From: Sinomonas sp. ASV322
Lineage (GTDB): Bacteria; Actinomycetota; Actinomycetes; Actinomycetales; Micrococcaceae
NCBI RefSeq assembly: GCF_030908245.1
Contig: NZ_JAVFJJ010000003.1
Span: forward strand, 62,001 to 126,000
Direction: 5' to 3'
DNA: 64,000 nt
The notes under the pieces are model-generated. The model had not been told where the DNA came from. It did not search any database and worked only from the letters and a program-made list of their open reading frames with translations. Each line of letters begins with the position of its first letter. Within the stretch, counting starts at the first letter, position 1. The translations under genes were made by a program, and so were the position numbers. Shown here in pieces: positions 20,651 to 59,900 of this stretch.

Positions 20651-20767
20651 CGTTCAGGGGTCACCTCTTGTGGGTGTTTTCCCGTCCAAGGGTCACGTTC
20701 CGTCGGTTCAACCCGCAGGACGTGACCCTTGGACGTTGGTGCACCCGCAGGAGGTGACCCCTGAACG
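20651..20767. repeat. Nested 117-bp inverted array with 32-bp period (GGTCACC family)
   Basis: Four 26-bp units: 20651-20676 and 20683-20708 on the left, 20710-20735 and 20742-20767 on the right, with 6-bp spacers and one central base. The outer pair matches at 24 of 26 and the inner at 22 of 26; the outer arm has the word CGTTCAGGGG and the inner CGTCCAAGGG, each matched by its own partner. It lies exactly between two convergent genes. Confidence 0.9.
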
Positions 20768-20773
20768 CGGGGG

Positions 20774-21475
20774 CTACGCCGCCGAGCCGCCAAGGTACGC
20801 GCGATGCAGGAGCTCGGAGTCGTCCCGAAGCGCCGAGGCAGGACCGTGATAGCCCACCTTGCCGCCGGCCACGACGAGCGCCTCCCGGGCGATGCCGAGC
20901 GCGAGGTGCGTGAACTGCTCGACGAGCAGGACTCCGGCGCCCGACTGGGCAAGCTCCTCGACGTACGGCAGGAGGCGCATGAACACGACGGGGGCGAGGC
21001 CGAGCGACATCTCGTCGATGAGCAGGAACCTCGGCTTTGCAGCGAAGGCACGGGCGAGCACGACCATCTGCTGCTCGCCGCCCGAGAGGAGCGCGGCGGG
21101 CGAGTTGATCCGCTTCTCAAGCTCGGGGAAGCGCCCGATCGCGGCATCCATGTCCGCACCCGTCCGCGCGGTGAGCGAGAGGTTCTCGCGGACCGTGAGG
21201 GAGGGGAATACCGCCCGGCCCTGTTCGATGTGCAGGAGGCCGCGCTTGACCCGGGCCACGCGTGAGAGCTTCTCGATCGGGTCTCCGTCGAGGACGATGC
21301 GCCCGCCGGAGACCCCGACGACGCCCGAGATCCCGTCGAGCAGGCTCGTCTTGCCAGCCCCGTTGGGGCCCACGAGGGCGGTCACCTCGCCGGGCGTGAC
21401 GGTCAGCGAGACGTTGGCGATGACGGGGCCGGCCCCGCGGCTCACCGTGACGTTGTCGACGACGAGAGAACTCAC
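20774..21475 (-). CDS. livF: Branched-chain-type ABC transporter ATP-binding protein LivF
   Basis: 233-aa ATPase. Walker A GPNGAGKTS, signature LLSGGEQQMVVLARAF, Walker B RFLLIDEMSLGLAP. The start is GTG 21475, which overlaps the end of the fused permease/ATPase gene by 4 nt (GTGA). Last gene of the liv operon; the 32-bp repeat array lies 7 nt past its stop. Confidence 0.9.
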   Translation of the reverse strand: MSSLVVDNVTVSRGAGPVIANVSLTVTPGEVTALVGPNGAGKTSLLDGISGVVGVSGGRIVLDGDPIEKLSRVARVKRGLLHIEQGRAVFPSLTVRENLSLTARTGADMDAAIGRFPELEKRINSPAALLSGGEQQMVVLARAFAAKPRFLLIDEMSLGLAPVVFMRLLPYVEELAQSGAGVLLVEQFTHLALGIAREALVVAGGKVGYHGPASALRDDSELLHRAYLGGSAA

Positions 21476-23307
21476 AGCATCTCCGTTTCGCCCATGTAGG
21501 CCTTGATGACGGCGGGATTGGCGAGGACCTCGTCCTGCGGGCCGCTCGCGAGCACCTTGCCGAAGTCGAGCACGGTCAGCTGGCTGCACACGGCGCGGAC
21601 AAGGTCGAGGTCGTGTTCGATGAGCACGACGGACATTCCGTAGGTCGAGGGCAGCGTCCGCAGCCGCTCCCCGAGGGCCACGTGCTCCTCATGTGAGAGG
21701 CCGGCGGCCGGCTCGTCGAGAACGAGCACGCTCGGCTTCGCGGCGACGTTGGCGGCGACTTCGATCAGCCGACGCGTCCCGATGTCCGCGGTCGAGAGTC
21801 GGGTCCCCGCCGAAGGGCAGCCGAAGAAGCCGAGGACGTCGGCGAGCTCGGCATCGCTCACATGCCGGCGCGCGACAAAACGCACGTACGCCCCGACCGT
21901 GAGCGACGGCGGCACACGGTCCTGCTGGAACGTGCGCCGCAGGCCGAGGCGCGCCCGGTGGGTGGGGGAGAGACCCTTGAGGGGCGTTCCGCCGAGGCTC
22001 ATCGTGCCAGTCGCCTGGGGCAGGAACCCGGAGATCGCGTCGACGAACGTCGACTTGCCCGCACCGTTCGGGCCGATGAGGCCCATGACGGTGCCCGCGG
22101 GCACCTCGACGTTGACGTCGTCGAGCGCTTTGAGGGCGCCGAACTGGACGGTGAGATGGTCGACGGCGAGCGCGAGCCCGTGCGCCGGACGTCCGCTCCC
22201 CGCGGTGCCCGCAGCCAAGGGCGACGACGGCGACGGCGCAGCGGCGGGCGACGACCCGCCGTCGTGCGTGCCCCCGCGATCATCGAGGCCCCGGGCGCCG
22301 GGACCCGCGGAGGCGGGCGCGGCCTCGACCGGTGCCGTCGTGCCGCTGCGGGGGGCGACCCGGCCGCGGCGCTTCCACCACGCGTTGCGGATCTCCTCGC
22401 CGAGGTTGGTGCCGCTCGTGAGCGCCTGGACGCCGAGCGCGCCGAAGATCACGAACCCCCAGTCCTGCGGGATGCCGAAGCGCTTGAGGAGCTCGGGCAC
22501 GAGAACCCACATGATGCCGCCGAAGACCGCCATGTCGATGAGCTGGGTGCCGCTCATCACGGCGAGCACGTACAGCGCGAGCGACTGGATCGGCGTGAAG
22601 CTCGAGGGGAACGGAAGCTGCACCTGCCCGGCAAGGAGGCCGCCGGAGACGCCGCCGAGCGCCGCGGAGACCGCGAACGCGGTGAGCTTGGCCGTACGGA
22701 CACTCTGCCCGACGGCGGCGGTCCCGCGCTCGGAGAACGCGACGGACTTCCAGCTCGCGCCCCAGCGGCTGCGCTGGAGCCAGAAGACGCCAAGCGCGCA
22801 CACCACGAGCACGATGACGCTGAAGAAGAAGAACTGACGGTCGTCCGAGAAGGCGTCGGGGCGTTCGACGGGGATCCCGTCCTTCGAGCCGGGGAACTGG
22901 ATCTGCTGGAGGGTCACGTCGGCCGCCGCGGCGAAGCCGAGCGTGACGACGGCGAGGTTGACGCCGCGCAGGCGCAGCGCGGGCAGGCCGACGAGAATCC
23001 CCGCGGCTCCCGCCGCGATCCCGCCCGCGACGAGCCACACGATGAAGCCGCCCGGCGCCTCCATCACATTGAGAAGCGAGACGACCCACGCGCCGACGGC
23101 GGCGAACGTGAGCTGGCACAGGGCGATCATGCCGGCCGAGCCGGTCACGATGCCGAGGCCGAGGAGGGCGATCGCGGCCGTGACGGCCGAGACGGCGAAG
23201 AAGACGAAATAGCCCGAGAGCGAGATGCTCAGGACATACCCCACGACGAGGGCGGCGACGGCGGCCAGCAGGGGCCAGCCGCGGACGAGGCTGGTATTAG
23301 CGCGCAG
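21472..23307 (-). CDS. Fused LivM permease and LivG ATPase
   Basis: About 611 aa: residues 1-310 are a LivM-type permease with about eight spans (LTFAAVGAW..., GLPALRLRGVNLAVVTLGFA), then a Pro/Ala/Gly/Ser linker of about 65 residues, then a LivG-type ATPase (about 380-611). Walker A GPNGAGKST and Walker B VLVLDEPAAGLSHEE are intact. The signature region reads LSTADIGTRRLIEVA, not the canonical LS-GQ form. Start choice: no ATG/GTG fits; CTG at 23307 has AAAGGAGG 9 nt ahead and gives MRANTSLVRGWPLL, overlapping the end of livH by 11 nt. Fusion of these subunits is seen in other actinobacteria. Confidence 0.85.
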   Translation of the reverse strand: MRANTSLVRGWPLLAAVAALVVGYVLSISLSGYFVFFAVSAVTAAIALLGLGIVTGSAGMIALCQLTFAAVGAWVVSLLNVMEAPGGFIVWLVAGGIAAGAAGILVGLPALRLRGVNLAVVTLGFAAAADVTLQQIQFPGSKDGIPVERPDAFSDDRQFFFFSVIVLVVCALGVFWLQRSRWGASWKSVAFSERGTAAVGQSVRTAKLTAFAVSAALGGVSGGLLAGQVQLPFPSSFTPIQSLALYVLAVMSGTQLIDMAVFGGIMWVLVPELLKRFGIPQDWGFVIFGALGVQALTSGTNLGEEIRNAWWKRRGRVAPRSGTTAPVEAAPASAGPGARGLDDRGGTHDGGSSPAAAPSPSSPLAAGTAGSGRPAHGLALAVDHLTVQFGALKALDDVNVEVPAGTVMGLIGPNGAGKSTFVDAISGFLPQATGTMSLGGTPLKGLSPTHRARLGLRRTFQQDRVPPSLTVGAYVRFVARRHVSDAELADVLGFFGCPSAGTRLSTADIGTRRLIEVAANVAAKPSVLVLDEPAAGLSHEEHVALGERLRTLPSTYGMSVVLIEHDLDLVRAVCSQLTVLDFGKVLASGPQDEVLANPAVIKAYMGETEML

Positions 23308-24157
23308 AGTCCCACACCTCCTTTCGCTGCGTCCAGAGCAGCAGCACGACGATGAACAGGAAGGGGAGGAAGTTGCGGATGAGCGCGACCTCCTCGATCT
23401 GGGCGACGAGACCCGAGAGCACCCCGAGCGCAAGTCCGCCGACGACGGCGAGGCCCGGCCGCGTGAAGCCGCCGAGGAGCGCCGCGGCCGAGGCGGGGAC
23501 GATGAGCATCGCGAGGCTCGTCGCGTCGTTCGACTGCGAGGGGGCCACGATGACGATCGCGATCGCACTGATCACGCCGGTGGCGGCCCACACGGCGATC
23601 GAGAGGGGCTTGGACGGGATGCCGAGCAGTTCGGCCGTGGTCGGCCGCTCGGAGAGGGCGCGCAGCTGCGTTCCGACGGCCGTCTTCGTGAGGATGAGCT
23701 GCACCGCGACGGCGACGACGACCGCGAGCAGGACCATGACCACGGTCACCTGGCTCACGACGACGCCCCCGAATTCGAAGGCGGGGCCCCCGAGGATCGG
23801 GCTGAACGGCTGCGGCTTGTTCCCGAAGAGGATGAAGGAGAGCGAGATGAGCAGCAGGAGAGGCCCGACGGTCATCGCCGAGCGCGCCGTCGTGCTCGCT
23901 TCGGAGAGCCACGTCGCGGCGATCCAGCCGATCGCCGCGGAGAGCGCACCCGCGAGGAGGATCCCGAGCACGGAGCCCAGCCAGATCGGGAGGCCCGCGG
24001 CCGTGACAAGCCAGACGGCGACGAACGCACCGAACATGCCCGTCGCGGCCTGCGAGAAATTCACGACCCGCACGAGCCGGGACATGAGCGTGAGGCACAC
24101 GGCGAGCGCGGCGTAGAGTCCCCCGGCGGCGAGGCCGGCGAGCGCGCCTTGCAGCAT
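23297..24157 (-). CDS. livH: Branched-chain-type ABC transporter permease LivH
   Basis: 286-aa polytopic permease, about eight spans, beginning MLQGALAGLAAGGLYAALAV, the usual LivH start. VVNFSQAATGMFGAF is the conserved motif of the family, and the segment LRALSERPTTAELLGIP matches the cytoplasmic loop that contacts the ATPase. AGAAGGAAAG lies before the ATG. Second gene of the operon after the binding protein. Confidence 0.92.
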   Translation of the reverse strand: MLQGALAGLAAGGLYAALAVCLTLMSRLVRVVNFSQAATGMFGAFVAVWLVTAAGLPIWLGSVLGILLAGALSAAIGWIAATWLSEASTTARSAMTVGPLLLLISLSFILFGNKPQPFSPILGGPAFEFGGVVVSQVTVVMVLLAVVVAVAVQLILTKTAVGTQLRALSERPTTAELLGIPSKPLSIAVWAATGVISAIAIVIVAPSQSNDATSLAMLIVPASAAALLGGFTRPGLAVVGGLALGVLSGLVAQIEEVALIRNFLPFLFIVVLLLWTQRKEVWDSAR

Positions 24158-24257
24158 GGACTTTCCTTCTTTCGATTCAGGAACGGCGAACGGTGAAGCG
24201 TGAGGGGCGAGCCGTCGTCGAACGTCGGCCCACCCCCCACGGCGCTGTGCTGTGCTG

Positions 24258-25439
24258 TTATTGGGGCAGCTTGATCCAGTCGGATCCGCTCGACTGCCAC
24301 GCGTTCGTGCCGCTCGCGAGCTTGATCGGCCAGGCGGCCGTGTTGTTCGCGTGGGTCGAGGCGGTGCCGAACGTGTACGGCGTGCCGACCATCGGGTTCT
24401 GGATGGGCTGCAGCTCGTGGAGGGCCTTCGTCACGGATTCACGGGTGACGTCGCCCTTGATGCCCTGGAGGGCCTGGATGAGGTACTTCGCGGAGAGGAA
24501 CCCACCCTGGCTGAACGAGGTCAGCGGGATGTTGTTCTTCGTCATGAGGTCGCGCCATTCCTTGTTGATCTGGTTGGACGCATCCGTGAACGGGTAGAAC
24601 TCGGCCGGCACGTAGATGCCCGATCCGGCGTTCGAGACGGCCTTCGCAAAGTTGTCGCTGTAGACGCTCGTCAGGTAGAGCCACGTCACGTCGTTCCAGC
24701 CCTGCGCGTTGGCGGCCTTGACCTGGGCGACGGCGTCGGGCTCGATCGCGTTGATTGCGACGGACTTGCAGCCCGCGTTCTTGGCCTTGACGATGTACGG
24801 CGTGAAGTCGGACGCCCCGACCTGGACCGTGTCGTCGATGTAGAACGGCTTCTTGCCGGTGGCCTTCGACCAGGTGTCGATCGCGCCTTGGTACGCGGGG
24901 CGGGTCGATCCGGCGATTTCGAGGAGCACGCAGATCTTGTCGAGGTTCAGCTTCTCGGAACCGTAGAAGAGCGTGAGCGCCATGTCGTTGTACGGGCCGA
25001 GGTTGGCGGGGGAGATATTCGGGCTGTTGAAGCATCCTGGGTCGACCCCGATGCCGGGAATCGAGAGGATCTTCTGCTGCTCGTAGTACTTCTGGTTGAC
25101 CTGGCACTCGAGGAGGCTGGCCGAGCCGGCGAGCGCGACCGCGTTGTCGCTGCCCACCAGTTCGCGGGCGCTCGCTGAGGCGGTCGCGGGGTCGCCCTTG
25201 TCGTCGAACGTCTTGTAGTCGATCTTCCGGCCGTTGAGTCCGCCGGCCTGGTTGAACGCGTCGAAGACCGCGGCGGCGGCCTGGCTCGCCTCGGGGAACG
25301 TTGCCGGACCGCTGCGGGTGTTGATCGAGCCCACGACGATGGGGGAGTTCGAGGAGCTGCTGCTGCTCGCTCCGCCGCAGCCGCTCAGCACCAGGGCTGC
25401 CGCGGCGAGAGCCGCGACGCCGATCACGCGTCGATTCAT
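24258..25439 (-). CDS. livK: LIV-type ABC transporter substrate-binding lipoprotein
   Basis: 393-aa periplasmic-binding-protein family 6 protein with lipobox LSGC (Cys21) after a short hydrophobic signal. IVVGSINTRSGPATFPEASQAAAAVFDAFNQAGG is the typical first strand-helix; the hinge and second lobe follow. First gene of livK-livH-livMG-livF. The adjacent PucR regulator and GABA catabolic genes make GABA or related amines possible ligands besides branched-chain amino acids; the sequence alone does not decide. Confidence 0.9.
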   Translation of the reverse strand: MNRRVIGVAALAAAALVLSGCGGASSSSSSNSPIVVGSINTRSGPATFPEASQAAAAVFDAFNQAGGLNGRKIDYKTFDDKGDPATASASARELVGSDNAVALAGSASLLECQVNQKYYEQQKILSIPGIGVDPGCFNSPNISPANLGPYNDMALTLFYGSEKLNLDKICVLLEIAGSTRPAYQGAIDTWSKATGKKPFYIDDTVQVGASDFTPYIVKAKNAGCKSVAINAIEPDAVAQVKAANAQGWNDVTWLYLTSVYSDNFAKAVSNAGSGIYVPAEFYPFTDASNQINKEWRDLMTKNNIPLTSFSQGGFLSAKYLIQALQGIKGDVTRESVTKALHELQPIQNPMVGTPYTFGTASTHANNTAAWPIKLASGTNAWQSSGSDWIKLPQ

Positions 25440-25615
25440 CGAATATCTGCCTCTCGATTGCCGCTTTTCAGGGGGATGCGGCGTCGTTCGTCACCCGCTC
25501 TTGCAGGGTGCCGTTGATGCGATGTGATGCAGTTTCCATCGCACGGGAGGCGGGGGACATGTCGTTGAGTGCATGACGCTTGTCTGTCCGGGCACGCATG
25601 TGTCGCGGGTCACCG

Positions 25616-25698
25616 GCGGAAGGTGACCCCTGGGTGGAGCGGAACCCGCGGAAGGTGACCCCTGGGTGGAGCGGAACCCGCGGAAGGTGACCCCTGGA
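25616..25698. repeat. 32-bp tandem repeat (GGTGACC family), three units
   Basis: Units begin with GCGGAAGGTGACCCCTGG at 25616, 25648 and 25680: period exactly 32 bp. Read on the minus strand it starts at the stop codon of the PucR gene with GGGGTCACCT, as in the arrays at 20651 and 36947. Opposite-strand arms are mostly missing here. Confidence 0.9.
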
Positions 25699-27132
25699 TT
25701 AGGATTTCGCGACGCGCCGGACCGCGATGGCCAGGAACAGCTGGACCCTGTCGGCAGTCACGGCCGGATCGTAGCCCGTGAGCTCGGCGATCTGCGCGAG
25801 CCGGTACCGCACGGTGTTCCGGTGCAGGTTCAGCTCGTCGGCAACCGCCGCGACCGATCCGTTGAGGTTGAGGTACGCCTCGAGCGTGTGGACGAGCTCG
25901 GAGCCGTGCTGTTTGTCGAAGCGGACGAGCGGCCCGATGGCCTCCCCGGCCATGTCCGCGAGCGGGACGTCCTCGCTCGAGAGGAGGAGCGAGGTCAGGC
26001 TCAGGCGCTCGGGTTCGTTGACCTCAAGCCCCCGTGCGGCAGCCTCCTTGGCCTCGAAGTAGCTCCAGCGGAGCCCGTTGGGCTTCGTGTAGCTGCCGCC
26101 GATCCCGATCGTCGCGTGGATGCCAGCCTCGACCAGATGGTCCGCCAGGTTCCGTGCGAGCTTGGGGGCGCGGCCGCCGTCGTCCTCGATGACGACCACC
26201 AGGTCGTGGTCCACGATCGCGCTCACGGCGCCGTCGATCGCTGCGGGCAGCGTCGTGCCGCGGAGATTCTTGTGGTGCGCCGCCGATTCGGCGAGCAGCA
26301 CGACGTTGCGCTTCGTCGAATTGACGCCCACCCCAGCGAGGCGGCGGGACGCCTCGTCGGTGTCCAGGGCGCCGCGGACGACGTCGGCCATCACCTGCCC
26401 TGCGAGCGCTCGCTGGGCCTGACGCTGCTTCGTGAGGTTGTTGAGCTCGATGCTGATGAGGTTCTGGGCGTAGCCGACGATCCCCGAATCGTCGAACGGC
26501 TTCTTGGCCCACAAGGTGCACGCGTCGCGGCGGCCGGTCGGCACGGGGAACGGGACCCAGCGGTCCATCGTCGGGGCTCCGGCGTCCTTGCTGCTCGAGT
26601 ACAGCTCAGCGGTGAACTGCGTGAGGACGAGCTCGGTGCCGAGCATTTCCCCGAGGTGCTTGAGCAGCTCGGGGAGGCCGCCGCCAGTGAGAAGGGATCG
26701 GGCCAGGACCTGGTGGTCGGCGATGAGCTTCTCGAGCTTCGCGAAGTGGTCCGCCGAGTGGGAGTCCGCCACGAGCTTCCCGAGCGCGATGAAGGGCGTC
26801 TGATACGGGACCTCGATGACGGGCAGCCCCCAGCGGTTGGCCTCCGCTACGAGTGCGGGAGGGACGACCTCGTGCCCGAGCCCCACACCGAAGCCGATCC
26901 CGACGGCGCCCGACCGCTGCAGGATGCGGACGAACCGCCGCTGCTCCTCCGCAGTCCGCTGGCGCACGCCGGTCGTAAGGACGAGCTCGCCGCCGCTGAG
27001 GAACGTCGCAGGGTTTTCCTGTTCGGTGACCGCGACCCACGCGATCTCGCGGCCGAGTGTCGAGGTCGCGGAGCCCGCGAGAGAGAGCCCGAGGCCAGGG
27101 GCATTGAGCAGCGCGGAGAGGGTGAGAGCCAT
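25699..27132 (-). CDS. PucR family transcriptional regulator
   Basis: 477 aa. N-terminal PucR ligand domain (WVAVTEQENPATFLSGGELVLTTG), a middle GGDEF-like/CdaR part and a C-terminal helix-turn-helix (ELNLHRNTVRYRLAQIAELTGYDP), the PucR C-terminal signature. Divergent from the GABA aldehyde dehydrogenase and gabT genes, which it probably activates. The start ATG 27132 has a perfect TATAAT 6 nt upstream, so it is likely leaderless. The stop codon lies within a 32-bp repeat. Confidence 0.88.
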   Translation of the reverse strand: MALTLSALLNAPGLGLSLAGSATSTLGREIAWVAVTEQENPATFLSGGELVLTTGVRQRTAEEQRRFVRILQRSGAVGIGFGVGLGHEVVPPALVAEANRWGLPVIEVPYQTPFIALGKLVADSHSADHFAKLEKLIADHQVLARSLLTGGGLPELLKHLGEMLGTELVLTQFTAELYSSSKDAGAPTMDRWVPFPVPTGRRDACTLWAKKPFDDSGIVGYAQNLISIELNNLTKQRQAQRALAGQVMADVVRGALDTDEASRRLAGVGVNSTKRNVVLLAESAAHHKNLRGTTLPAAIDGAVSAIVDHDLVVVIEDDGGRAPKLARNLADHLVEAGIHATIGIGGSYTKPNGLRWSYFEAKEAAARGLEVNEPERLSLTSLLLSSEDVPLADMAGEAIGPLVRFDKQHGSELVHTLEAYLNLNGSVAAVADELNLHRNTVRYRLAQIAELTGYDPAVTADRVQLFLAIAVRRVAKS

Positions 27133-27138
27133 GCGTGG

Positions 27139-27144
27139 ATTATA
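27139..27144 (-). promoter_or_regulatory. -10 box of the PucR gene
   Basis: TATAAT on the minus strand, 6 nt ahead of ATG 27132. The palindrome AACGCGTT (27150-27157) just upstream is a possible operator. Confidence 0.6.
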
Positions 27145-27289
27145 GATTGAACGCGTTAGTCGATCGCACGATAAGTCATTCCTGGCCCAGTGCATTCGGC
27201 CATACTGGTTGTGGCGTGGGTCGCCTAGTCTCGTGGAGGGCCGAATGGCCGGACAGACTAGCTCACCCAGCCAACAAGGAAATGACACC

Positions 27290-28720: not shown

Positions 28721-28793
28721 GCTCGAGCCCCTCCGGCACACGCGCAGCGCCGGGCACACGCCTTTGGCGCCCTAGAAAGGAGAACCAACACCC

Positions 28794-30152: not shown

Positions 30153-30169
30153 CGTCCGCGCACGGACCC

Positions 30170-30206
30170 GACACCGGCGCGCCCTCACCAAGGGCGCGCC
30201 GGTGTC
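30170..30206 (+). terminator. Terminator after gabT
   Basis: Perfect 16-bp stem (30170-30185 with 30191-30206) and a 5-nt loop. The next gene's -10 box starts 2 nt after the stem. Confidence 0.8.
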
Positions 30207-30207
30207 G

Positions 30208-30219
30208 TAGAGTCTGCAC
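30208..30219 (+). promoter_or_regulatory. -10 box of the universal stress protein gene
   Basis: TAGAGT at 30208-30213, 6 nt, ATG 30220; no ribosome site. The terminator stem ends 1 nt before. Confidence 0.55.
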
Positions 30220-31092
30220 ATGCGGTACGTCGTGGGCTACCAGCCAGATGAGCGCGGCGCGGACGCCGTCGCCCTTGGCATCGCGATCGCCCGAGCCCAG
30301 GGCGCCAAGCTCGAACTCATGCTCGTGCTCGGCGAGAACGCCCCGTACGTCGCGGCGAACCCAGAAGGGGCCCGTGTCAACGCGGAGGAACAGCAGGTCC
30401 TCACGGCCCAGCGGACGGCGCTCGGCATGGTCCCGCACGATGTCTCGGCCGAATTCCATGTGCGCCAGGGCAGCTCGTTCGCGGCGGTCCTTATCGAAGC
30501 CGCCGTCGAGTTCGAGGCCGCCCTCATCATCGTCGGGGCCGCGAGCAATGGACTCTTCAAGCGCTACACCGTGGGAAGCGTTGCGAATTCGCTCCTGCAC
30601 GCGTCGCCGATTCCCGTCGCCCTCGCCCCCCGCGGCTATCACCGCACCGCGCCCATCGAGCGGCTCACGGCCTTCATCGGCCGCCGCCCCGGCGCGGACG
30701 CCGCCGTCGACGTCGCCCTTGTCGCGGCGAGCCGACGCAATGTGCCGCTTCGCTTCGTCTCCCTCGTCGAACTGGACGAACGCGGCGAGCACGGCGAGAA
30801 CATCAACGCGGCGCACCGGCACGCGAACACTGTCCTCGAAAGCGCGGCGCACCGCCTGCCGCGCGGGCATGAGGCGAGCGTCGCCGTCGCGCACGGCCGG
30901 ACCCTCGAGGCCGCCGTCGACAGCCTCGACTGGCGCGACGGCGAGCTCGTGATCATCGGCTCGAGCCGGCTTGCGCAGAAGCGTCGAATCTTCATCGGCT
31001 CGACGGCCAACAAGATCCTGCGCGCGTTGCCCGTTCCGCTCGTCGTGGTCCCGCTCGAATACGAGGGCGCCGAGTCCCGTCCGCTCGGCTGA
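30220..31092 (+). CDS. Tandem-domain universal stress protein
   Basis: 290 aa with two UspA domains. Each domain has the nucleotide-binding G-x2-G-x9-G(S/T) end: GAASNGLFKRYTVGS near residue 107 and GSSRLAQKRRIFIGS near 247. A leaderless start is expected. It is likely an ATP-binding stress/dormancy protein; the actual function is unknown. Confidence 0.88.
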   Translation: MRYVVGYQPDERGADAVALGIAIARAQGAKLELMLVLGENAPYVAANPEGARVNAEEQQVLTAQRTALGMVPHDVSAEFHVRQGSSFAAVLIEAAVEFEAALIIVGAASNGLFKRYTVGSVANSLLHASPIPVALAPRGYHRTAPIERLTAFIGRRPGADAAVDVALVAASRRNVPLRFVSLVELDERGEHGENINAAHRHANTVLESAAHRLPRGHEASVAVAHGRTLEAAVDSLDWRDGELVIIGSSRLAQKRRIFIGSTANKILRALPVPLVVVPLEYEGAESRPLG

Positions 31093-31105
31093 GGCGGGCC
31101 CGCTC

Positions 31106-31249
31106 ATGGGGGAGACCCAGGATCTGGGCAAGCTCCGCATAGAGCAGCATCATGGTCGCATGGATTTCGCGTACGTCCCGCGGAGTGGCGCGCTGGGCGA
31201 GTTCGCCGTGGTCGCAGAGCGGACGACGACGGCTGGCGGCTCCGCGTGA
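31106..31249 (+). CDS. Small hypothetical protein, coupled to the next gene
   Basis: A 47-codon frame starting MGETQDLGKLRIEQHH and ending with a 4-nt overlap (GTGA) on the following membrane protein gene. No domain is recognisable and the ribosome site is weak (GGCGGG). Its existence rests on the overlap and coding-like third positions; it may instead be untranslated leader. Confidence 0.3.
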   Translation: MGETQDLGKLRIEQHHGRMDFAYVPRSGALGEFAVVAERTTTAGGSA

Positions 31250-32019
31250 GCGCCGAGTTTCACGCGCTGCCGCCTCGGGCGTTCCCCGACGACGCTGCGC
31301 GGGCGGAAGGCGTGGCTGAGGCGCCCCCGGACGGCCGGGGGGTGGGCGAAGCGGATGGACCGCCCCCGCGCGGCGCGCCGCCCGCCGTCGTCGTCCAAAT
31401 TCTCGCGACCGAACATTGGAGCCTCCTCGCGACGCGCAGCATGCTGTGGAACGAGCTCATGAGCCGCATCTCGATCCACCTCACCATCTCGTCGGCCGCG
31501 CTCGTGGTGCTCGCCCTCGTCGGGCAGGCCACCGGCTTCGGACCGGGGTTCTGGGTCATGGCGGTGGGGCTCTCCTCGGCGCTGCTCATCCTCGGAACGC
31601 TCACGCTGCTCCGCGTTGCCCTCGGAAGCTTCGAGGATTTTCGGCTCGTCGTCGGGATGAATCGCCTGCGGGGCGCGTACGCCGAAATTGAGCCGGCCGT
31701 CCTCGATCACTTCGTCACGTCCGCGCGCGACGACTTTCCGGGAGTTTCGGCGACCTACACGCTCGGAATGCGGCGCCCGACGTTCGTGCAGGCCTATTCG
31801 AGCACAGTGTTCTTCCTCGCCTGTTTCAACGCGATCGTGGCTGGGACCCTTGCGGCGGTCGTCGCCTTCGTGGCTGGGGGGCCGACGGCCCTTGTCGCGA
31901 CGCTTGGCTCTGCGGTTCTCGTGGCCTACCTCGCCGTGCACCGGTGGCTCACGCGCCGGATCTTCAAGGGTATGGGGGCGGCCTTCTTTCACGGCGCGTA
32001 CGGGAGTGACGGTTCGTGA
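31246..32019 (+). CDS. Hypothetical integral membrane protein
   Basis: 257 aa. About 60 polar, Pro-rich residues precede two hydrophobic pairs: residues about 83-102 and 107-128, and again about 190-212 and 215-232. The loop between them is soluble and charged (GSFEDFRLVVGMNRLRGAYAEIEPAV). No family is recognised. Start GTG 31246 overlaps the small frame upstream. The stop codon lies at the edge of a 19-bp repeat array. Confidence 0.65.
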   Translation: MSAEFHALPPRAFPDDAARAEGVAEAPPDGRGVGEADGPPPRGAPPAVVVQILATEHWSLLATRSMLWNELMSRISIHLTISSAALVVLALVGQATGFGPGFWVMAVGLSSALLILGTLTLLRVALGSFEDFRLVVGMNRLRGAYAEIEPAVLDHFVTSARDDFPGVSATYTLGMRRPTFVQAYSSTVFFLACFNAIVAGTLAAVVAFVAGGPTALVATLGSAVLVAYLAVHRWLTRRIFKGMGAAFFHGAYGSDGS

Positions 32020-32023
32020 GCGG

Positions 32024-32141
32024 CATAGCCGTCCCCTCCGCCGCATGACCGTCTGTGCGCGGCATGACCGTCGGTGCGCGGCATAACCGTCCCTTATTTC
32101 GCGACGCAAGGGACGGTTATGGCGCTCAGAGACGGTTATCC
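32024..32141. repeat. 19-bp repeat array with mirrored arms (CATAACCGTCC family), copy 1
   Basis: CAT(A/G)(A/G)CCGTC words at 32024, 32044, 32063 and 32082 (periods 20, 19, 19), then the reverse complement GACGGTTAT ending at 32121 and 32140. The central arms pair at 17 of 18. The same design is found at 33240, on the other side of the next gene. Confidence 0.88.
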
Positions 32142-32235
32142 CGGCGGAGGCGGGTTGCCCCGCGAGAGCGCATGCGTGTGGCCCCTCCGGACGTTATCCA
32201 CATAGCGCCGTTGGGCCGCGCATGGAGAGCATCTG

Positions 32236-33255
32236 ATGGGCGAGACTGCGCTCATGGCATCCCACGAGCTCACGACATTGCTTGACACACGATGGCCCGC
32301 GCTTCGAGTGGCCTCCTCGGAACAGCTCAGAGTCGCCGGCCTCGACAGCCGCGCGCTGGCCGCGGCCGTGCGGGACCGGATCCTGGTCCGCATCCGGCGG
32401 GGTGTCTACGTTCGCCGGCCTCTTTGGCAATCGCTGGCCCCGTGGGAGCGCGACCAGTTGCGCGTCGAGGCGCATTGGCTCGCGACAGGCGGCTCGTCCG
32501 TCTACAGCCACGTCTCGGCGGCGCGGCTGCTGGGGTGCTCAACGTGGGAGAGCGGTCCGGCGATCCATGTCACCGTGCCGTATTCGGTGTCCCGCGCGAG
32601 CCACGGCGGAGACGTGGCTCCCCATCGGTTCGCTGTGGGGGACGACGACGTCGTCGAGGTCCCGCTCGGATGGGGGCAGATCGCCCGGGCCACGTCCCTC
32701 GACCGCACGGTGGCAGACTGCGCGAGGTCGCTCGACATCGAGCGGGCGGCGGTCGTGGGCGATCACGCGCTACGGCTCGGAGCGAGCCTCGACGGCATCC
32801 GCGCCGCGGCTGACCGTACCGGCGCCATCCGAGGCGCCCGCCGCGTCGAGCGGCTCGTTGGCCTGCTCGACGGTCGGTCGGAGTCGCCCGGAGAAACCCG
32901 CACCCGGTTGGCACTCCTGGCCGCGGGCCTCCCCGCGCCTGAACTTCAGTTCGAGATTTCCACCGGGGAGGGCCGCTTCCGGGCCGACTTCGCCTGGCCC
33001 GATGTGCTCGTGATCCTCGAGTTCGACGGCGAGGCCAAATACTTCGACTATCGCCCGACCGATGTTGCACTTCGGGCAGAGCGGAGGCGGGAGAATGCGA
33101 TCGTCGACGAGGGCTGGACCCTCGTCCGCGCCAGGTGGGCCGATCTATCGATTCCCGGCGCGATCCCGGCCAAGGTTCTCGCCGCGTTCGAACGGGCCCG
33201 GCGGCTCGCTGGCTCCCGTCCTCCCGGCCTCCGTGGCAGCATGACCGTCGGATAA
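32236..33255 (+). CDS. AbiEi/DUF559-type protein (winged helix plus endonuclease-like C-terminus)
   Basis: 339 aa. The N-terminus looks like an AbiEi_4 winged-helix antitoxin domain (SSEQLRVAGLDSRALAAAVRDRILVRIRRGVYV), the C-terminal part like DUF559 with a restriction-like active site: E in SPGETRTRL, D in FRADFAWPD, and E-x-D-x-E-x-K in ILEFDGEAKYF. Such proteins are common in actinobacteria and no AbiEii toxin is present. GGAGAG lies 6 nt before ATG 32236. The last four residues (MTVG) come from the 19-bp repeat that follows. Flanking by the same repeat in the same orientation is noteworthy. Role unknown. Confidence 0.7.
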   Translation: MGETALMASHELTTLLDTRWPALRVASSEQLRVAGLDSRALAAAVRDRILVRIRRGVYVRRPLWQSLAPWERDQLRVEAHWLATGGSSVYSHVSAARLLGCSTWESGPAIHVTVPYSVSRASHGGDVAPHRFAVGDDDVVEVPLGWGQIARATSLDRTVADCARSLDIERAAVVGDHALRLGASLDGIRAAADRTGAIRGARRVERLVGLLDGRSESPGETRTRLALLAAGLPAPELQFEISTGEGRFRADFAWPDVLVILEFDGEAKYFDYRPTDVALRAERRRENAIVDEGWTLVRARWADLSIPGAIPAKVLAAFERARRLAGSRPPGLRGSMTVG

Positions 33256-33336
33256 GGCCATAACCGTCGGTTGGCGGCATAACCGTCCCCTGGTCCGCGG
33301 CGCAAGGGACGGTTATGCCGCTCAGGGACGGCTGTG
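33240..33336. repeat. 19-bp repeat array with mirrored arms (CATAACCGTCC family), copy 2
   Basis: CATGACCGTC/CATAACCGTC words at 33240, 33259 and 33278 (period 19), then reverse complements ending at 33317 and 33336. The central arms GCGGCATAACCGTCCC and GGGACGGTTATGCCGC pair perfectly. The array provides the stop codon of the preceding gene. Confidence 0.9.
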
Positions 33337-33380
33337 CCGCTTGCCCGTGGCCGAACCGCGAGGCGGTCATGTGGCGCGAG

Positions 33381-33479
33381 GCGGAGAAGCGGCTGCGCGA
33401 GGCCCGCAGGAAGGAGCACGAGCGGTTGCGGGATGCGCGCGGGAAGGAGCGCGAGCGGTTGCGGGACGCGCGCGGGAAG
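33381..33479. repeat. Three 33-bp tandem units, coiled-coil coding on the plus strand
   Basis: Units 33381-33413, 33414-33446 and 33447-33479. On the plus strand they read as 11-residue repeats of the type E-x-E-R-L-R-D-A-R-G-K in a frame of uncertain status (33315 onwards). On the minus strand this is downstream of the RarD gene. No gene is called. Confidence 0.75.
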
Positions 33480-33512
33480 CCGGCCAAGGCCAACCGCCGA
33501 ACGGGGCCCACG

Positions 33513-33612
33513 CTGCCGTGGCCCTCGCGCCCGCGCCCACGCCGCCGCGGCCCTCGCGCCCGCGCCTACACGCCCGCGCTGCCGTGGCTCTCGCGCCGTG
33601 GCCCTCGCGCCT
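33513..33612. repeat. Degenerate GTGGCCCTCGCGCC repeats
   Basis: Four near copies of GTGGCCCTCGCGCC at about 33517, 33547, 33582 and 33598, with intervening GCGCC(T/C)AC words, ending at the stop codon of the RarD gene. Nothing else is seen in 33337-33616. Confidence 0.6.
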
Positions 33613-33616
33613 GGGC

Positions 33617-34630
33617 CTACGCCGCGGCGGAAGCCGCCTCGGCGCGCGCCTGCGCCGCGCGGAGGGCCGTGCGGCGGCGGCTCGTTGCGAGCAGCATGTC
33701 CGCCGTGAGCACGACGAGCGCGAGCCACACGATCCCGAAGCCGACCCACCGCTCGGGGCCCATGTGCTCGCCGAGCACGGTCGTCGCGAGGATGAACTGG
33801 AGCAGCGGCGCCATGTACTGCAGCAGGCCGATCGTCGTCATCGGCAGGCGCCGGGCTGCCGCGCCGAAGAAGAGCAGCGGAACGGCCGTGACGACGCCGC
33901 TCGCCGCGAGCAGTCCGAAATGGCCCGCGCCGTGGCCGAACAGCGTGAGGGATCCCGCGGCCGCGAGCCAGCCGATCGCCGCGAGGGCGACCGGCGCGAG
34001 CACGACGGTCTCGACCGTGAGGCTCGTGACCGCCGTGACCGTCGCCCCGACGCGGTTCTTGACGAGCCCGTAGAAGCCGAAGCTGAACGCGAGGATGAGG
34101 GCGATCCACGGCATCCGGCCGTACGCGAGCGCGAGTACGAGGACGGCGACGAAGCCGATCGCGACGGCCGCCCATTGGAGCGGCCGGAGGCGTTCCTTCA
34201 GCACGAGCACGCCGAGAAGCACGCTCACGAGCGGGTTGATGAAGTACCCCAGCGAGGCCTCGATGGCCTGCCCGCTCAGGACGCCATACGTGTACGTGAG
34301 CCAGTTGACGGCAATGAGGGCGGCCGCGAGCGAGAGGGCGCCGAACGTCCGGCCCGAGCGGAGAGCCGCCCCGAGCGCGCCCCACGAGCGTGTCGCGGCG
34401 ATGAGCACGAGGCACACGACGACGGAGAACACGACCCGGTCCGAAACGATCTCCACCGGTCCTGCCGGCACGAGCGTCATGAAGTACAGCGGAAGCAGCC
34501 CCCACAGCCCATAGGCCCCGATCCCGTAGAGCAGGCCGGCGGTCGCCGACGAGGCCGCGCGGTTCGGCCCCTCGGCGCTCGGGCCGGCTGGTGGGGCCGT
34601 TGTCGGATCGGAGGGGGCGTCGGGCTTCAC
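33617..34630 (-). CDS. rarD: RarD-type EamA transporter
   Basis: 337-aa drug/metabolite superfamily permease with ten predicted spans. The RarD mark GIGAYGLWGLLPLYFMTL is at the first span, then VEIVSDRVVFS, SLGYFINPLVSVLLGVLVLKERLRPLQW and the second EamA half ending in LQYMAPLLQFILA. Likely exports a small hydrophilic compound; RarD was first tied to chloramphenicol sensitivity but its substrate is unknown. Start taken at GTG 34630, 7 nt after TACGGT; GTG 34636 is the alternative. The Ala-rich C-terminus abuts a repeat region. Confidence 0.85.
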   Translation of the reverse strand: MKPDAPSDPTTAPPAGPSAEGPNRAASSATAGLLYGIGAYGLWGLLPLYFMTLVPAGPVEIVSDRVVFSVVVCLVLIAATRSWGALGAALRSGRTFGALSLAAALIAVNWLTYTYGVLSGQAIEASLGYFINPLVSVLLGVLVLKERLRPLQWAAVAIGFVAVLVLALAYGRMPWIALILAFSFGFYGLVKNRVGATVTAVTSLTVETVVLAPVALAAIGWLAAAGSLTLFGHGAGHFGLLAASGVVTAVPLLFFGAAARRLPMTTIGLLQYMAPLLQFILATTVLGEHMGPERWVGFGIVWLALVVLTADMLLATSRRRTALRAAQARAEAASAAA

Positions 34631-34637
34631 GGTCACG

Positions 34638-34643
34638 ACCGTA
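34638..34643 (-). promoter_or_regulatory. -10 box of the RarD gene
   Basis: TACGGT on the minus strand, 7 nt ahead of GTG 34630. Confidence 0.4.
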
Positions 34644-34693
34644 CAACGGGAATGCCCCTGTCAGGTATTCCAGGGCCCTCGTCTTCCAGAAGC

Positions 34694-35443
34694 TCAGGCG
34701 GTCCGGTGGGCCCAGCGCCCGGACGCGCACAGGCGGAGCGCGACGGCTGCCGCGATCGCCGAGACCGCGACGAGCGAGACGAGCACGACGAGCTGGACGA
34801 TCGCGGCGTCGACCGGGCTCGCCCCGCCGAGCACCATCCCTACGAAGGCACCCGGCAGGGTGACCGTTCCGACCGTGCGCGTCTGGTCCAGGGAGGGGAT
34901 GAGCGCCTCGCGTGCCGTGTGGCGTGCCACGAGGAGGCGAGCGGGACGCCATTCGAAGCCGAGGGCGACGGCGGCCTCGACCTCGCCGCGCCGCAGCTCG
35001 AGCTCGGCGAGGACGCGACGGGCGGCGAGGCTCGTCGTCGTCATCGCTCCGCCGACCTGCTGGCCGATGAGCGCGATGAGCGCGAGCCCGTCGAACGGCA
35101 GGACGCCCGTCGCGAGCAGGATGAGCACGGCCGGCGCGACCCCCGCCGCGATCGGTGCGGCGGCCCACCACCAGCGCGTGCGGTCGGCGCGGCGACCCGC
35201 CGTGACGACGGCGACGGCGAACATCGCGAGCGTGAACAGGAGTGCGAGCCACGGGCTTTTCCCGAGCTGGGAGACGAGGAGGGCGACGACGGCGAGCTGG
35301 CCCACGGCGCGAAGGCTCGCCGTGACGGGCGGCCGCCACCCGCCGTCGAGCGCCCCGCGGTGGACGGCGGCGGCGAGCGCGGTCAGGAGGACGACGGCGA
35401 CGACGACGCCGGGCCCGAGTCCCAAGAGCGTCGAACTCTGCAC
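34694..35443 (-). CDS. FetB-like ABC permease (UPF0014, metal-related)
   Basis: 249-aa membrane protein of the FetB/YbbM family with about seven spans. Family motifs are RAVGQLAVVALLVSQL near the N-terminus, the metal/ATPase interface region GQQVGGAMTTTSLAARR, and PSLDQTRTVGTVTLPGAFVGMVLGGASPVDAA. FetAB in E. coli is reported to export iron; the ATPase partner FetA is not in the window next to it, so function is uncertain. GTG 35443 is 7 nt after TATTGT and probably leaderless; the promoter overlaps that of fprA2. Confidence 0.8.
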   Translation of the reverse strand: MQSSTLLGLGPGVVVAVVLLTALAAAVHRGALDGGWRPPVTASLRAVGQLAVVALLVSQLGKSPWLALLFTLAMFAVAVVTAGRRADRTRWWWAAAPIAAGVAPAVLILLATGVLPFDGLALIALIGQQVGGAMTTTSLAARRVLAELELRRGEVEAAVALGFEWRPARLLVARHTAREALIPSLDQTRTVGTVTLPGAFVGMVLGGASPVDAAIVQLVVLVSLVAVSAIAAAVALRLCASGRWAHRTA

Positions 35444-35449
35444 GCGAAC

Positions 35450-35456
35450 TACAATA
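35450..35456. promoter_or_regulatory. Shared bidirectional -10 element of the FetB-like and fprA2 genes
   Basis: TACAATA: read on plus it gives TACAAT (35450-35455) for fprA2, on minus TATTGT (35456-35451) for the FetB-like gene, with the leaderless 7-nt gap to GTG 35443. Confidence 0.5.
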
Positions 35457-35505
35457 TGAGGTTGCGTGCTGATTCAGCGCGCGGAGCTGCCGGAAGGATC
35501 ATCCC

Positions 35506-36939
35506 GTGACCAACGCCCCTGCTGCACGACCGCTGCGCGTCGCCATCATCGGCGCCGGGCCCGCCGGGGTCTACGCGGCAGACATCCTGACCAAGTCGAA
35601 CGAGGTCAAGGACGGAGATTTCGAGGTCAGCATCGACCTCTTCGACCAGTACCCCGCGCCGTACGGGCTCATCCGCTACGGGGTGGCCCCGGATCACCCA
35701 CGCATCAAGGGCATCGTCAACGCGCTCCACAAGGTGCTCGACCGCGGCGACATCCGCTTCATCGGCAACGTCACGTATGGGCGCGACGTCACGCTGAGCG
35801 ACTTCCGCCACTTCTACGACGCCGTCATTTTCGCGACGGGCGCGATCAAGGACGCGAAGCTCGACATCCCGGGTTCAGACCTCGAGGGCTCGTTCGGCGG
35901 CGCGGACTTCGTGTCGTGGTACGACGGCCACCCGGACGTCGCGCGCGACTGGCCGCTCGACGCGAAGGAAGTCGCGGTCATCGGCAACGGCAACGTCGCC
36001 CTCGACGTCGCCCGGATGCTGTCCAAGCACGCCGACGACCTTCTCGTCACCGAGATCCCCGACAACGTGTACCGCGTCCTCAAGGGCAGCCCGGTCACGG
36101 ACGTCCACGTCTTCGGGCGCCGCGGCCCCGCACAGGTGAAGTTCACGCCGCTCGAGCTCCGCGAGCTCTCGCACTCGCGCGACGTCGACATCGTGCTGTA
36201 CCCCGAGGACTTCGAGTTCGACGAGGCCTCGGATGAGGCGATCCGAACGAACAACCAGGTCAAGACGATGGTCAACACGCTCGCGAACTGGATCGCGGAG
36301 GACCAGGACACGGGCGCGTCCCGCCGTCTGCACCTGCACTTCCTGCACAGCCCCGTCGAGATCTACGACGCCCCGGAGGCCCGGGGCAAGGTTGCCGGCA
36401 TCCGCTTCGAGCGCATGGAGCTCGACGGCACGGGCAACGTGCGCGGCACCGGCGAGTTCGAGGACTACCCCGTCCAGGCCGTCTACCGCGCGATCGGCTA
36501 CCACGGTTCCGAGCTCGCCGAGCTCGAGTTCGACGCGCACCGCGGCGTCATCCCGAACGACGGCGGCCGCGTCCTCGACGAGGAAGGCGCGCCCGTGCCG
36601 GGCGTCTACACGACGGGTTGGATCAAGCGTGGCCCCGTGGGCCTCATCGGCCACACCAAGGGTGACGCGCTCGAGACGATCGGGTGCCTCCTCGAAGACC
36701 GCGACACGCTCCCGCCGGCCCAGAACCCCGACGAGCACGCGATCATGAGGCTCCTCGAGGAGCGCGGGGTCGAGTTCACGACGTGGGAGGGCTGGAACGA
36801 GCTCGACGCCCACGAGAAGTCGCTCGGCGAGAAGTTCACGGCGGAATCCGCGGAACAGGGCGCGCCCGTCGAGCGCGAGCGGGTCAAGGTCGTGCCGCGC
36901 GACGAAATGGTGCGTATCTCCCGCAAGCACAAGCGCTGA
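35506..36939 (+). CDS. fprA: FprA-type ferredoxin-NADP reductase, copy 2
   Basis: 477-aa paralogue of the protein at 19087, very close over most of its length. FAD motif IGAGPAGVYAADIL, YPAPYGLIRYGVAPDHPRIK, NADP motif VIGNGNVALDVARM and TTGWIKRGPVGLIGHTK. GTG 35506 has GGAAGGA 8 nt ahead. It lacks the N-terminal 15-bp repeat peptide of copy 1. It stands divergent from a FetB-like permease rather than by sulfur genes, so the two copies may serve different ferredoxins. Like copy 1 it is followed by a 32-bp GGTCACC array. Confidence 0.92.
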   Translation: MTNAPAARPLRVAIIGAGPAGVYAADILTKSNEVKDGDFEVSIDLFDQYPAPYGLIRYGVAPDHPRIKGIVNALHKVLDRGDIRFIGNVTYGRDVTLSDFRHFYDAVIFATGAIKDAKLDIPGSDLEGSFGGADFVSWYDGHPDVARDWPLDAKEVAVIGNGNVALDVARMLSKHADDLLVTEIPDNVYRVLKGSPVTDVHVFGRRGPAQVKFTPLELRELSHSRDVDIVLYPEDFEFDEASDEAIRTNNQVKTMVNTLANWIAEDQDTGASRRLHLHFLHSPVEIYDAPEARGKVAGIRFERMELDGTGNVRGTGEFEDYPVQAVYRAIGYHGSELAELEFDAHRGVIPNDGGRVLDEEGAPVPGVYTTGWIKRGPVGLIGHTKGDALETIGCLLEDRDTLPPAQNPDEHAIMRLLEERGVEFTTWEGWNELDAHEKSLGEKFTAESAEQGAPVERERVKVVPRDEMVRISRKHKR

Positions 36940-36946
36940 GCCCCAC

Positions 36947-37159
36947 CGTTTGGGGGTCACCTACGGTGGGTGGCGCGTCGTTTGGGGGTCACCTACGGTG
37001 GGTGCGGGGTCGTTTGGGGGTCACCTACGGTGGGTGCGGGGTCGTTTGGGGGTCACCTACGGTGGGTGCGGGGTCGTTTGGGGGTCACCTCCCGTGGGTT
37101 GAACCCGCGGGAGGTGACCTCTGAACGGGCGAGGACCTGCGGGAGGTGACCTCTGAACG
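36947..37159. repeat. 32-bp tandem array with mirrored arms (GGTCACC family)
   Basis: CGTTTGGGGGTCACCT at 36947, 36979, 37011, 37043 and 37075: five units, period exactly 32; units 2-4 are identical. A central G (37101) is followed by two reverse-complement units (37102-37127 and 37134-37159). Central arms 37083-37100 and 37102-37119 match at 17 of 18. It fills the gap between convergent fprA2 and the GGDEF-like gene. Confidence 0.92.
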
Positions 37160-59808: not shown

Positions 59809-59824
59809 CTGCGTCCCCGCACTG

Positions 59825-59900
59825 GTGCCGCGTCCCCCCAGCTGTGCCGCGGACCCGCAACTGTGCCGCGGACCCGCACTGGTGCCGCGGACCCGCGGCC
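59825..59900. repeat. 19-bp tandem repeat after tRNA-Tyr
   Basis: GTGCCGCGGACCCGCAACT-like units at 59825, 59844, 59863 and 59882, period exactly 19. No mirrored arms. Confidence 0.85.

Follow-up and report, generated by a model that had tools for sequence, protein, structure and literature searches.

Within a 64,000-nucleotide window of the Sinomonas sp. ASV322 genome (positions 62,001 to 126,000 of contig NZ_JAVFJJ010000003.1), units carrying GGTCACC stand just past stop codons at three loci, follow each other at 32-bp steps and face inverted copies of themselves. The question raised by these loci is what kind of element the units form and how their arms arise and change. The best explanation is that they probably belong to a Sinomonas-specific family of mobile palindromes that resembles the REPINs, which are paired repetitive extragenic palindromic (REP) sequences, without the usual REP-associated tyrosine transposase (RAYT), and that the arms grow by tandem duplication.

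Architecture of the family and its placement at gene ends

The 18-bp motif GGGTCACCTnnnGnGGGT, counted as the exact pattern GGGTCACCTNNNGNGGGT, had 155 exact copies in this Sinomonas genome and its reversed control had 0; hence, the repeats are a family and not a product of chance. The basic unit measured about 54-57 bp and consisted of two inverted 25-bp arms, each containing GGGTCACCTnnnGnGGGT, around a loop of 3-4 nt, and the common form of the 25-bp arm was CGTTCAG GGGTCACCT nnn G n GGGT. Besides the window, arrays were sampled at 34 sites, each covered by a stretch of about 4-7.5 kb; the sites were drawn from 100 of the 155 matches listed and from further sites on later contigs, with lone copies on later contigs missing from the sample. 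The sampled stretches held 38 arrays, namely, 29 inward mirrors, four with + units only, three with - units only and two mixed; two of the 29 mirrors are doubtful, one at window 25599 with a degenerate partner and one at L038 with a spurious inner unit. A GGGTCACCT match in a coding region (L062:2721) was included in the spacing, identity and polarity counts and dropped from the placement counts and the 38-array tally. Neighbours in the same arm were 32 bp apart in 127 of 152 cases, 31 bp in 8 and 33 bp in 2, so the spacing is non-random elsewhere in the genome as well. The spacing across the mirror centre was 30-31 bp, which corresponds to the 3-4 nt loop, in 16 of the 29 mirrors.

The regular 32-bp step and the position at gene ends, both claimed in the earlier note, were confirmed by direct reading: the step was present within the arms at all three window loci, and a stop codon adjoined the array at each of them, in support of a genuine, structured gene-end element. 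The features are as follows, with array edges accurate to 1-2 bp.

20651-20675 and 20683-20707, + strand: left arm of locus 1, two + units read from the sequence, 28 bp past the oxidoreductase-gene stop at 20622
20711-20735 and 20743-20767, - strand: right arm of locus 1, two - units, about 5 bp from the stop of an ABC-transporter ATPase gene at 20774 (- strand)
25612-25636, 25644-25668 and 25676-25700, - strand: locus 2, three - units, the last overlapping the PucR stop (25699, - strand)
25600-25624, + strand: degenerate inverted partner GGGTCACCGGCGG of locus 2, overlapping the innermost - unit
36947-37099, + strand: left arm of locus 3, five + units, 7 bp downstream of the oxidoreductase-paralogue stop at 36939
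37103-37159, - strand: right arm of locus 3, two - units, with the stop of a - strand open reading frame (ORF) about 8 bp away at 37169
37075-37127, strand not assigned: central hairpin of locus 3 from folding, 25-bp arms and a 3-nt loop

The window holds 23 copies of GGTCACC where 10.9 would be expected, and 0 of 100 shuffles reached 23. With Tandem Repeats Finder, loci 2 and 3 had a period of 32 and 95-98% matches; locus 1 was absent from its output for the window. The Pfam match of the gene beside locus 2 agreed with its earlier identification as PucR. The proteins encoded at 19183-20622 and 35506-36939 were both Pyr_redox_2 oxidoreductases in Pfam; the name fprA given to these paralogues in the earlier note was left unconfirmed, every NCBIfam match lying below the model cut-off. 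The - strand ORF with its stop at 37169 had no family match in the Pfam and NCBIfam search. A protein encoded beside the third array was matched first by Sinomonas atrocyanea (86% identity) and then mainly by Arthrobacter and further Micrococcaceae, in a search that may omit the record of the window itself.

The placement of the 38 arrays was evaluated against genes called by a simple composition-based finder rather than an annotation pipeline. Three arrays lay at contig ends, one inside an ORF and 34 between called genes, so that 34 of the 35 arrays away from contig ends were extragenic. The 34 placed arrays occupied 18 convergent, 15 co-directional and one divergent gap, and the convergent context was far more common than among random gene pairs of the same genome (18/34 vs 21/148, p = 1e-7). 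In the co-directional gaps, the array was closer to the stop than to the next start in 13 of 15 cases. The median distance from array edge to stop codon was 7 bp, with 29 of 51 distances within 10 bp.

Arrays right past stop codons and enriched between convergent genes would be expected if they worked, without a U-tract, as bidirectional terminators or as stabilisers of mRNA 3' ends. The transcript of either converging gene would then form the hairpin, tandem copies would raise the efficiency, and different species would fill the same ends with different hairpin families. A stable hairpin was present shortly past the stop codon, except at the seven single-orientation arrays. The predicted RNA hairpins were strong: the central hairpins had z values below -3.5 relative to shuffles in 19 of 21 folded cases (8 of the 29 mirrors were left out of the folding because of long centres, contigs without strand assignment, or, for L057, the exclusion given below). 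Moreover, an excerpt of a terminator survey (PMC8355165) describes poly-U as not necessary for hairpin terminators. A U-tract, scored as at least 4 T in the next 8 nt, was found at 0 of 116 hairpin or array ends, compared with an intergenic background of 3.6%. Hence, the earlier suggestion of terminator function stood as regards the hairpin and its position and failed as regards the U-tract. Arrays with tandem units and no partner arm, and a core sequence conserved beyond pairing, also stand against the terminator explanation, which is possible but doubtful for the family as a whole; a terminator role for the arrays is possible.

An rRNA or other structured-RNA terminator was considered for L068 and L088 and rejected, because neither had an Rfam match and both lay within ORFs. 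At the Rfam gathering score, a tRNA was the sole match in the window, and no match was obtained in the six array loci searched. In the open PubMed Central (PMC) literature, no paper on the GGGTCACCTnnnGnGGGT repeat was found.

Several further observations were made on the arrays. Contigs C4, C10 and C14 of this assembly start within long arrays. The arrays probably break the assembly, and the copy number is therefore likely underestimated. L036 and L041, each of which starts a contig, have spacers in common and may be one array split by assembly. At L051 (2972-3123), an alternating -+-+- array resembled the duplication of one whole hairpin. Outward-facing arrays, with - units on the left and + units on the right, the reverse of the usual inward order, were seen at L084, L085 and L104.

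Divergence of the arms and the replication strand

The two arms of a mirror were expected to match closely if pairing maintained them, as the earlier note had proposed. Identity was 0.916 between neighbours within an arm, 0.791 between random units and 0.759 between the two arms of one array. The inner arms of one array were less alike than shuffled pairs (0.731 vs 0.764), and 99.8% of the shuffles were higher. Where an excess of arm-to-arm covariation had been anticipated, a deficit was thus found. Mirror partners exceeded within-arm neighbours in only 1 of 18 arrays with at least two units per arm. This one array was the locus at 20651 (mirror 44, within-arm 40 of 50), where the claim that each unit matches its own partner better than its neighbour was correct; elsewhere it did not hold. 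Maintenance by pairing was rejected accordingly, given the cross-arm identity below shuffled values and arm differences of one sign. The growth of arms by tandem copying, also proposed earlier from the locus at 36947, is supported by its five + and two - units and by the high within-arm identity across the genome.

The differences between arms were largely transitions of one sign per array, which appear as G.U pairs on one strand and as A.C mismatches on its complement. The sum of |GU-AC| was 84, compared with 63.4 (sd 7.6) in shuffles (p = 0.003), and transversions showed no difference from the shuffled sets. At locus 3, all four arm differences of the central hairpin were G.U on the + strand and A.C on the - strand. 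RNA hairpins folded in the leading-strand sense were predicted to be more stable than those of the other sense by a mean of 4.8 kcal/mol (14 of 21, p = 0.008).

The arm differences track the replication strand, with exceptions. The polarity of the arrays was mostly constant along a contig (concordance p = 0.012), and the variation in units showed a keto (G/T) tendency along the leading strand and an amino (A/C) tendency along the lagging strand. The leading strand was inferred from 4-fold gene sites on contigs C12, C25, C28 and C29 (|z| 3.8-5.5, with an author-chosen cut-off). On these four contigs, keto bases made up 0.74 of the variable positions in the leading arms (n = 15) and 0.26 in the lagging arms (n = 16; p = 7e-5). 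Spacers specific to each array behaved in the same way, with keto fractions of 0.67 in 12 leading arms and 0.25 in 9 lagging arms (p = 0.0003), whereas that of intergenic DNA outside arrays was 0.507. Contig C8 (z 3.5, one arm) agreed with the strand rule and was left out of the four-contig test. L057, whose polarity opposes that of its own contig, was excluded from the strand, core-conservation and folding counts.

Two further frames of reference were obtained from relatives. Arrays were mapped on the chromosome of the sister genome G009, in which dnaA lies at 2.3-3.7 kb, under the assumption that both genomes are collinear. The replication rule was followed by 15 of 17 strongly polar arrays (p = 0.002) and by 18 of all 24 (p = 0.02), L057 being counted as a miss. 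The 24 arrays came from 28 tested ends, of which three had no orthologue and one had zero polarity; for the third array of the window, which had two near-equal G009 paralogues, the one 11 kb from PucR was used, as in the window. In the relative R1AF57, dnaA was located at 3.70 Mb, the terminus was assumed to lie opposite, and all 41 listed exact units were compared. None of the 22 leading-oriented units had an A after the motif G, compared with 8 of the 19 lagging-oriented ones (p = 0.0008), and these eight lie at separate places. Among 90 near-motif units of R1AF57, 2 of 26 positions reached p < 0.01, namely, the base after the motif G and the first N, where the keto fraction was 0.59 vs 0.29 (p = 0.006). 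An R1AF57 count that placed the origin at position 0 (1/25 vs 7/16) was superseded once dnaA had been mapped.

Some of these results count against the replication-linked picture. The 4-fold sites gave no signal on contig C23 (z 0.2), which has eight arrays, and their signal opposed the arrays on C2 and C4 (z -2.0 for both). In the 41 exact units of R1AF57, the first N did not differ between strands (T in 14/22 vs 7/19, p = 0.12). Six of the 24 arrays mapped on G009 were contrary, two of them strongly polar (L041, L035) and four weak; L035 has one unit per arm only and is a weak array. An advance prediction from L035, which would have put the G009 origin at 0.397-0.519 Mb, failed, as no dnaA was found in 398-518 kb.

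The strand dependence also bears on the terminator explanation, which does not account for a loss of pairing on one strand. Among co-directional arrays beside lagging-strand genes, L038, L055, L062 and L065 followed replication, their wobble-paired strand being the leading strand and not the transcript, and L035 was the opposite and followed the genes (small n). Selection at the RNA level on the transcript of the neighbouring gene is disfavoured by these few cases. Fixed left-end and right-end types are disfavoured as well, because the perfect copy at L068 is symmetric and the non-conserved spacers share the strand skew. The strand drift would be explained most simply by strand-specific C-to-T and A-to-G substitutions in arms freed from pairing. 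In a more elaborate proposal, the palindrome would be replication-coupled without a HUH transposase: single-stranded hairpins on the lagging-strand template would be copied and inserted by an enzyme, and the arms would be driven to G.T wobble, with the hairpin kept on the exposed strand and lost on the other. This proposal is considered unlikely.

Relatives, insertion sites and mobility

Exact motifs were present in 8 of the 14 other Sinomonas genomes (41, 22, 9, 7, 4, 3, 2 and 1 copies), and 6 of the 14 had none. Of 297 genomes sampled evenly across the order, 35, including this one, had a match, with at most two in each genome outside this one, and the reversed control matched in 11 genomes of the same sample. 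The core recurred with a period of 14 bp (some 28) in R1AF57, G002, G003 and G005, of 14 or 28 bp in G013, and of 21 bp in G014, and the 32-bp period was seen in this genome and in the sister G006. The constant feature is the motif with a variable gap, and the 32-bp period is lineage-specific. Hence, the earlier view of an equal helical phase as a design was not borne out, and a helical-phase array was rejected as a general design for the genus.

The same comparison is relevant to the idea of an array bound by a protein of the nucleoid, gyrase-like or roadblock type, in which 32 bp would represent three helical turns of the DNA. The conserved quasi-palindromic core would suit such a protein, as would the recurrence of about 31-32 bp in other repeat families. 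A period of about 31-32 bp was found in 10 of 44 tandem arrays of the genus without GTCAC in the printed sequence, although two of the ten (L197 and L266) are probably diverged family members and the 44 may include unrecognised coding repeats. The 14-, 21- and 28-bp periods of the same core in relatives and the 31- and 33-bp steps inside arrays of this genome argue against a binding array, which would also leave the empty site and the in-frame copies described below unaccounted for. This explanation is quite improbable.

Evidence of movement was obtained at L048, where the array is absent from the orthologous site in 3 of 3 sisters (G006, G009 and G007). The array sits between a GAG codon and a GTG-TGA end that directly abut in these three genomes; the gene thus ends here with CCC GCC TGA, and its old end lies past the array. 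A second case was lhr (Pfam WH_Lhr, Helicase_C and DEAD), in which a perfect palindrome is read in-frame in this genome: the matched stretch measures 1200 bp here, 57 bp more than the 1143 bp of G006, G007 and G009. Across species the lhr linker is highly variable, and a different palindrome-like sequence, GGTTGAGCGnAGnCGAAACC, occurs in some of them. R1AF57 has a copy in-frame within an ORF of 1200 residues (proline dehydrogenase/aldehyde dehydrogenase), between the Pro_dh and Aldedh domains. The in-ORF copies numbered two (L068, L088), and the other placed arrays were extragenic. As a side observation, both the length and the sequence of the lhr linker (L211-L226) vary among most of the 15 Sinomonas genomes, and the linker carries palindrome-like inserts of different families; it is a possible insertion hot spot.

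An empty site, together with inverted ends that each contain several direct repeats, would also be produced by a miniature inverted-repeat transposable element (MITE) of an ordinary cut-and-paste transposon, with the arms as multiplied terminal binding sites. Such an origin is highly improbable; no target-site duplication was visible at the one clean site, and the perfect-palindrome copy has no interior.

The same gene ends were then compared in the sister species, with orthologues found for 25 of 28 tested array ends. With a strict unit count, the family was present at 6 of 25 ends in G006, at 2 in G009 and at 0 in G007. With the looser motif GTCAC[CG]T-N5-[ACG]GGT, the values in the same order were 8/24, 7/25 and 0/25, compared with 2/137 random own ends and 4/31 other ends in the sister stretches. 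Sister-specific variants, such as GTCACCTCCCGACGGT in G006 and CGCCGTCACCTCCGCAGGGT in G009, suggest that the copies within each genome evolve in concert. Tandem arrays, whatever their sequence, occupied 15 of 49 ends in G006 and G009 and 1 of 25 in G007, compared with 5 of 137 random own ends (p = 2e-6 for 15/49), and unrelated repeat families were found at the ends orthologous to L045 and L064. The excess over random own ends, a comparison unmatched for convergent context, agrees with the terminator explanation. The difference from other sister ends was not significant (15/49 vs 6/31, p = 0.31; the 31 control ends may include partner ends of the same arrays), which speaks against it, as does the tandem array at only one of the G007 ends.

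The following points weigh against the explanation by REPIN-like mobile palindromes. The RAYT/Y1 transposase (PF01797) was found in 0 of 15 Sinomonas genomes at E 0.001, in a search with one model in which no other enzyme was sought; the model matched in 5 of 14 control genomes. The lack of a visible target-site duplication at L048 concerns the single clean site, and the lhr linkers are too diverged for the element ends to be placed. The variants at the same ends in G006 and G009 imply that many sites predate the species split, and the shared sites also fit retained function. The seven single-orientation arrays have no partner arm. Finally, the 8-bp core deviated in only 3.6% (leading) and 4.8% (lagging) of cells, compared with 28-29% for the 7-bp 5' flank, and the motif is thus conserved where flanking arm positions and spacers vary. 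This conservation supports recognition of the sequence, but it is partly ascertained, the units having been found via the core, and recent-duplication homogenisation also contributes. These core values came from 159 units placed 31-33 bp from an exact unit, 126 of them with strand assignment; the per-position strand table of core and flank was built on a broader assignment of contigs, derived in part from the arrays, and serves as an illustration, not a test.

Under the preferred explanation of a mobile, tandem-armed palindrome, the conserved motif would be recognised by a trans-acting protein that is encoded elsewhere and moves or amplifies the element. Movement would probably proceed via a single-stranded hairpin exposed on the lagging-strand template; this route is proposed because HUH transposases act on that template (excerpt of PMC6006769), although the one model searched detected none in these genomes. 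Insertions would be least harmful at gene ends, and some copies may have been kept as bidirectional 3'-end elements for termination or as mRNA ends.

Other repeat families were noted nearby and in relatives. A second family, GGCATAACCGTC, at about 32020-32157 and 33236-33342 of the window has a like design, with 19-bp tandem units followed by inverted units. GGCATRACCGTC had 30 exact copies genome-wide and 0 in the control, several of them as inverted pairs 32 bp apart. At window 59816-59896, a 19-bp tandem repeat of the CCCGCACTGTGCCGCGGA type follows a tRNA gene and a hairpin. The gene-end family CGTTTCGGGTACR (L206, L245, L246) has a 31-bp period in R1AF57 and G006 and, as CGTCTCGGGTACA, in G009; it is mirrored in L245, and in G006 and G009 it stands at the end orthologous to the array L045 of this genome. 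The intergenic family GCCGAAGTCACCCCGTGTG of R1AF57 (L202, L206, L207) has a 21-bp period. In Pseudarthrobacter and Arthrobacter relatives (L138, L156, L180), long inverted repeats follow a related oxidoreductase gene.

Comparison with known repeats and implications

In form, the Sinomonas element is closest to the REPINs and bacterial interspersed mosaic elements (BIMEs) of Pseudomonas and enterobacteria, which are likewise short, mostly extragenic inverted pairs that form hairpins, number many per genome and cluster in tandem. The differences are considerable. A RAYT was detected in none of the 15 Sinomonas genomes, and a RAYT-driven REPIN was rejected on this ground. The Sinomonas units multiply as single arms and not as whole doublets, and the arrays hug stop codons. 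REPIN arms show compensatory changes (excerpt of PMC3116915), whereas the Sinomonas arms drift apart by strand. The same excerpt places the tandem REP arrays of SBW25 in forward orientation near 2 Mbp and in reverse orientation near 4 Mbp, which is read here as a replichore-dependent orientation. A tetranucleotide guide 5' of the hairpin foot is given as a REP/REPIN feature in the excerpt of PMC6006769, and a paper on REP prediction tabulates REP counts for Arthrobacter livingstonensis (excerpt of PMC12306157). The element is not filed as a REPIN because a RAYT partner and compensation between arms were tested for and neither was found, though it may well work like one.

Other systems share single traits with the family. 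U-tract-less terminators and hairpin clusters are similar in that their hairpins lie within tens of bases of the stop codon and are often clustered (excerpt of PMC8355165); they differ from the Sinomonas arrays, which have a conserved core, tandem copies in the same orientation and a strand-dependent loss of pairing. Rickettsia palindromic elements are also found in-frame inside coding genes, but they are about 150 bp long and frequent in genes (excerpt of PMC10969869), compared with the two in-ORF copies in Sinomonas. The remaining likeness is by description only. Streptococcus pneumoniae belongs to a different phylum from Sinomonas. Its SPRITE, BOX and RUP repeats are described as terminator-like or mobile intergenic repeats (excerpt of PMC10969869).

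Known replicating small palindromes are tied to a RAYT, and here a dense family exists with no RAYT detected in 15 genomes, so that its mover can be sought. Furthermore, the imprint of replication direction is far stronger in the arms than in the surrounding DNA, which makes the arrays a test bed for mutation of hairpins on the leading and lagging strands. The presence of several unrelated families at gene ends raises the question of whether such elements are required at the gene ends of these high-GC bacteria or are just tolerated there.

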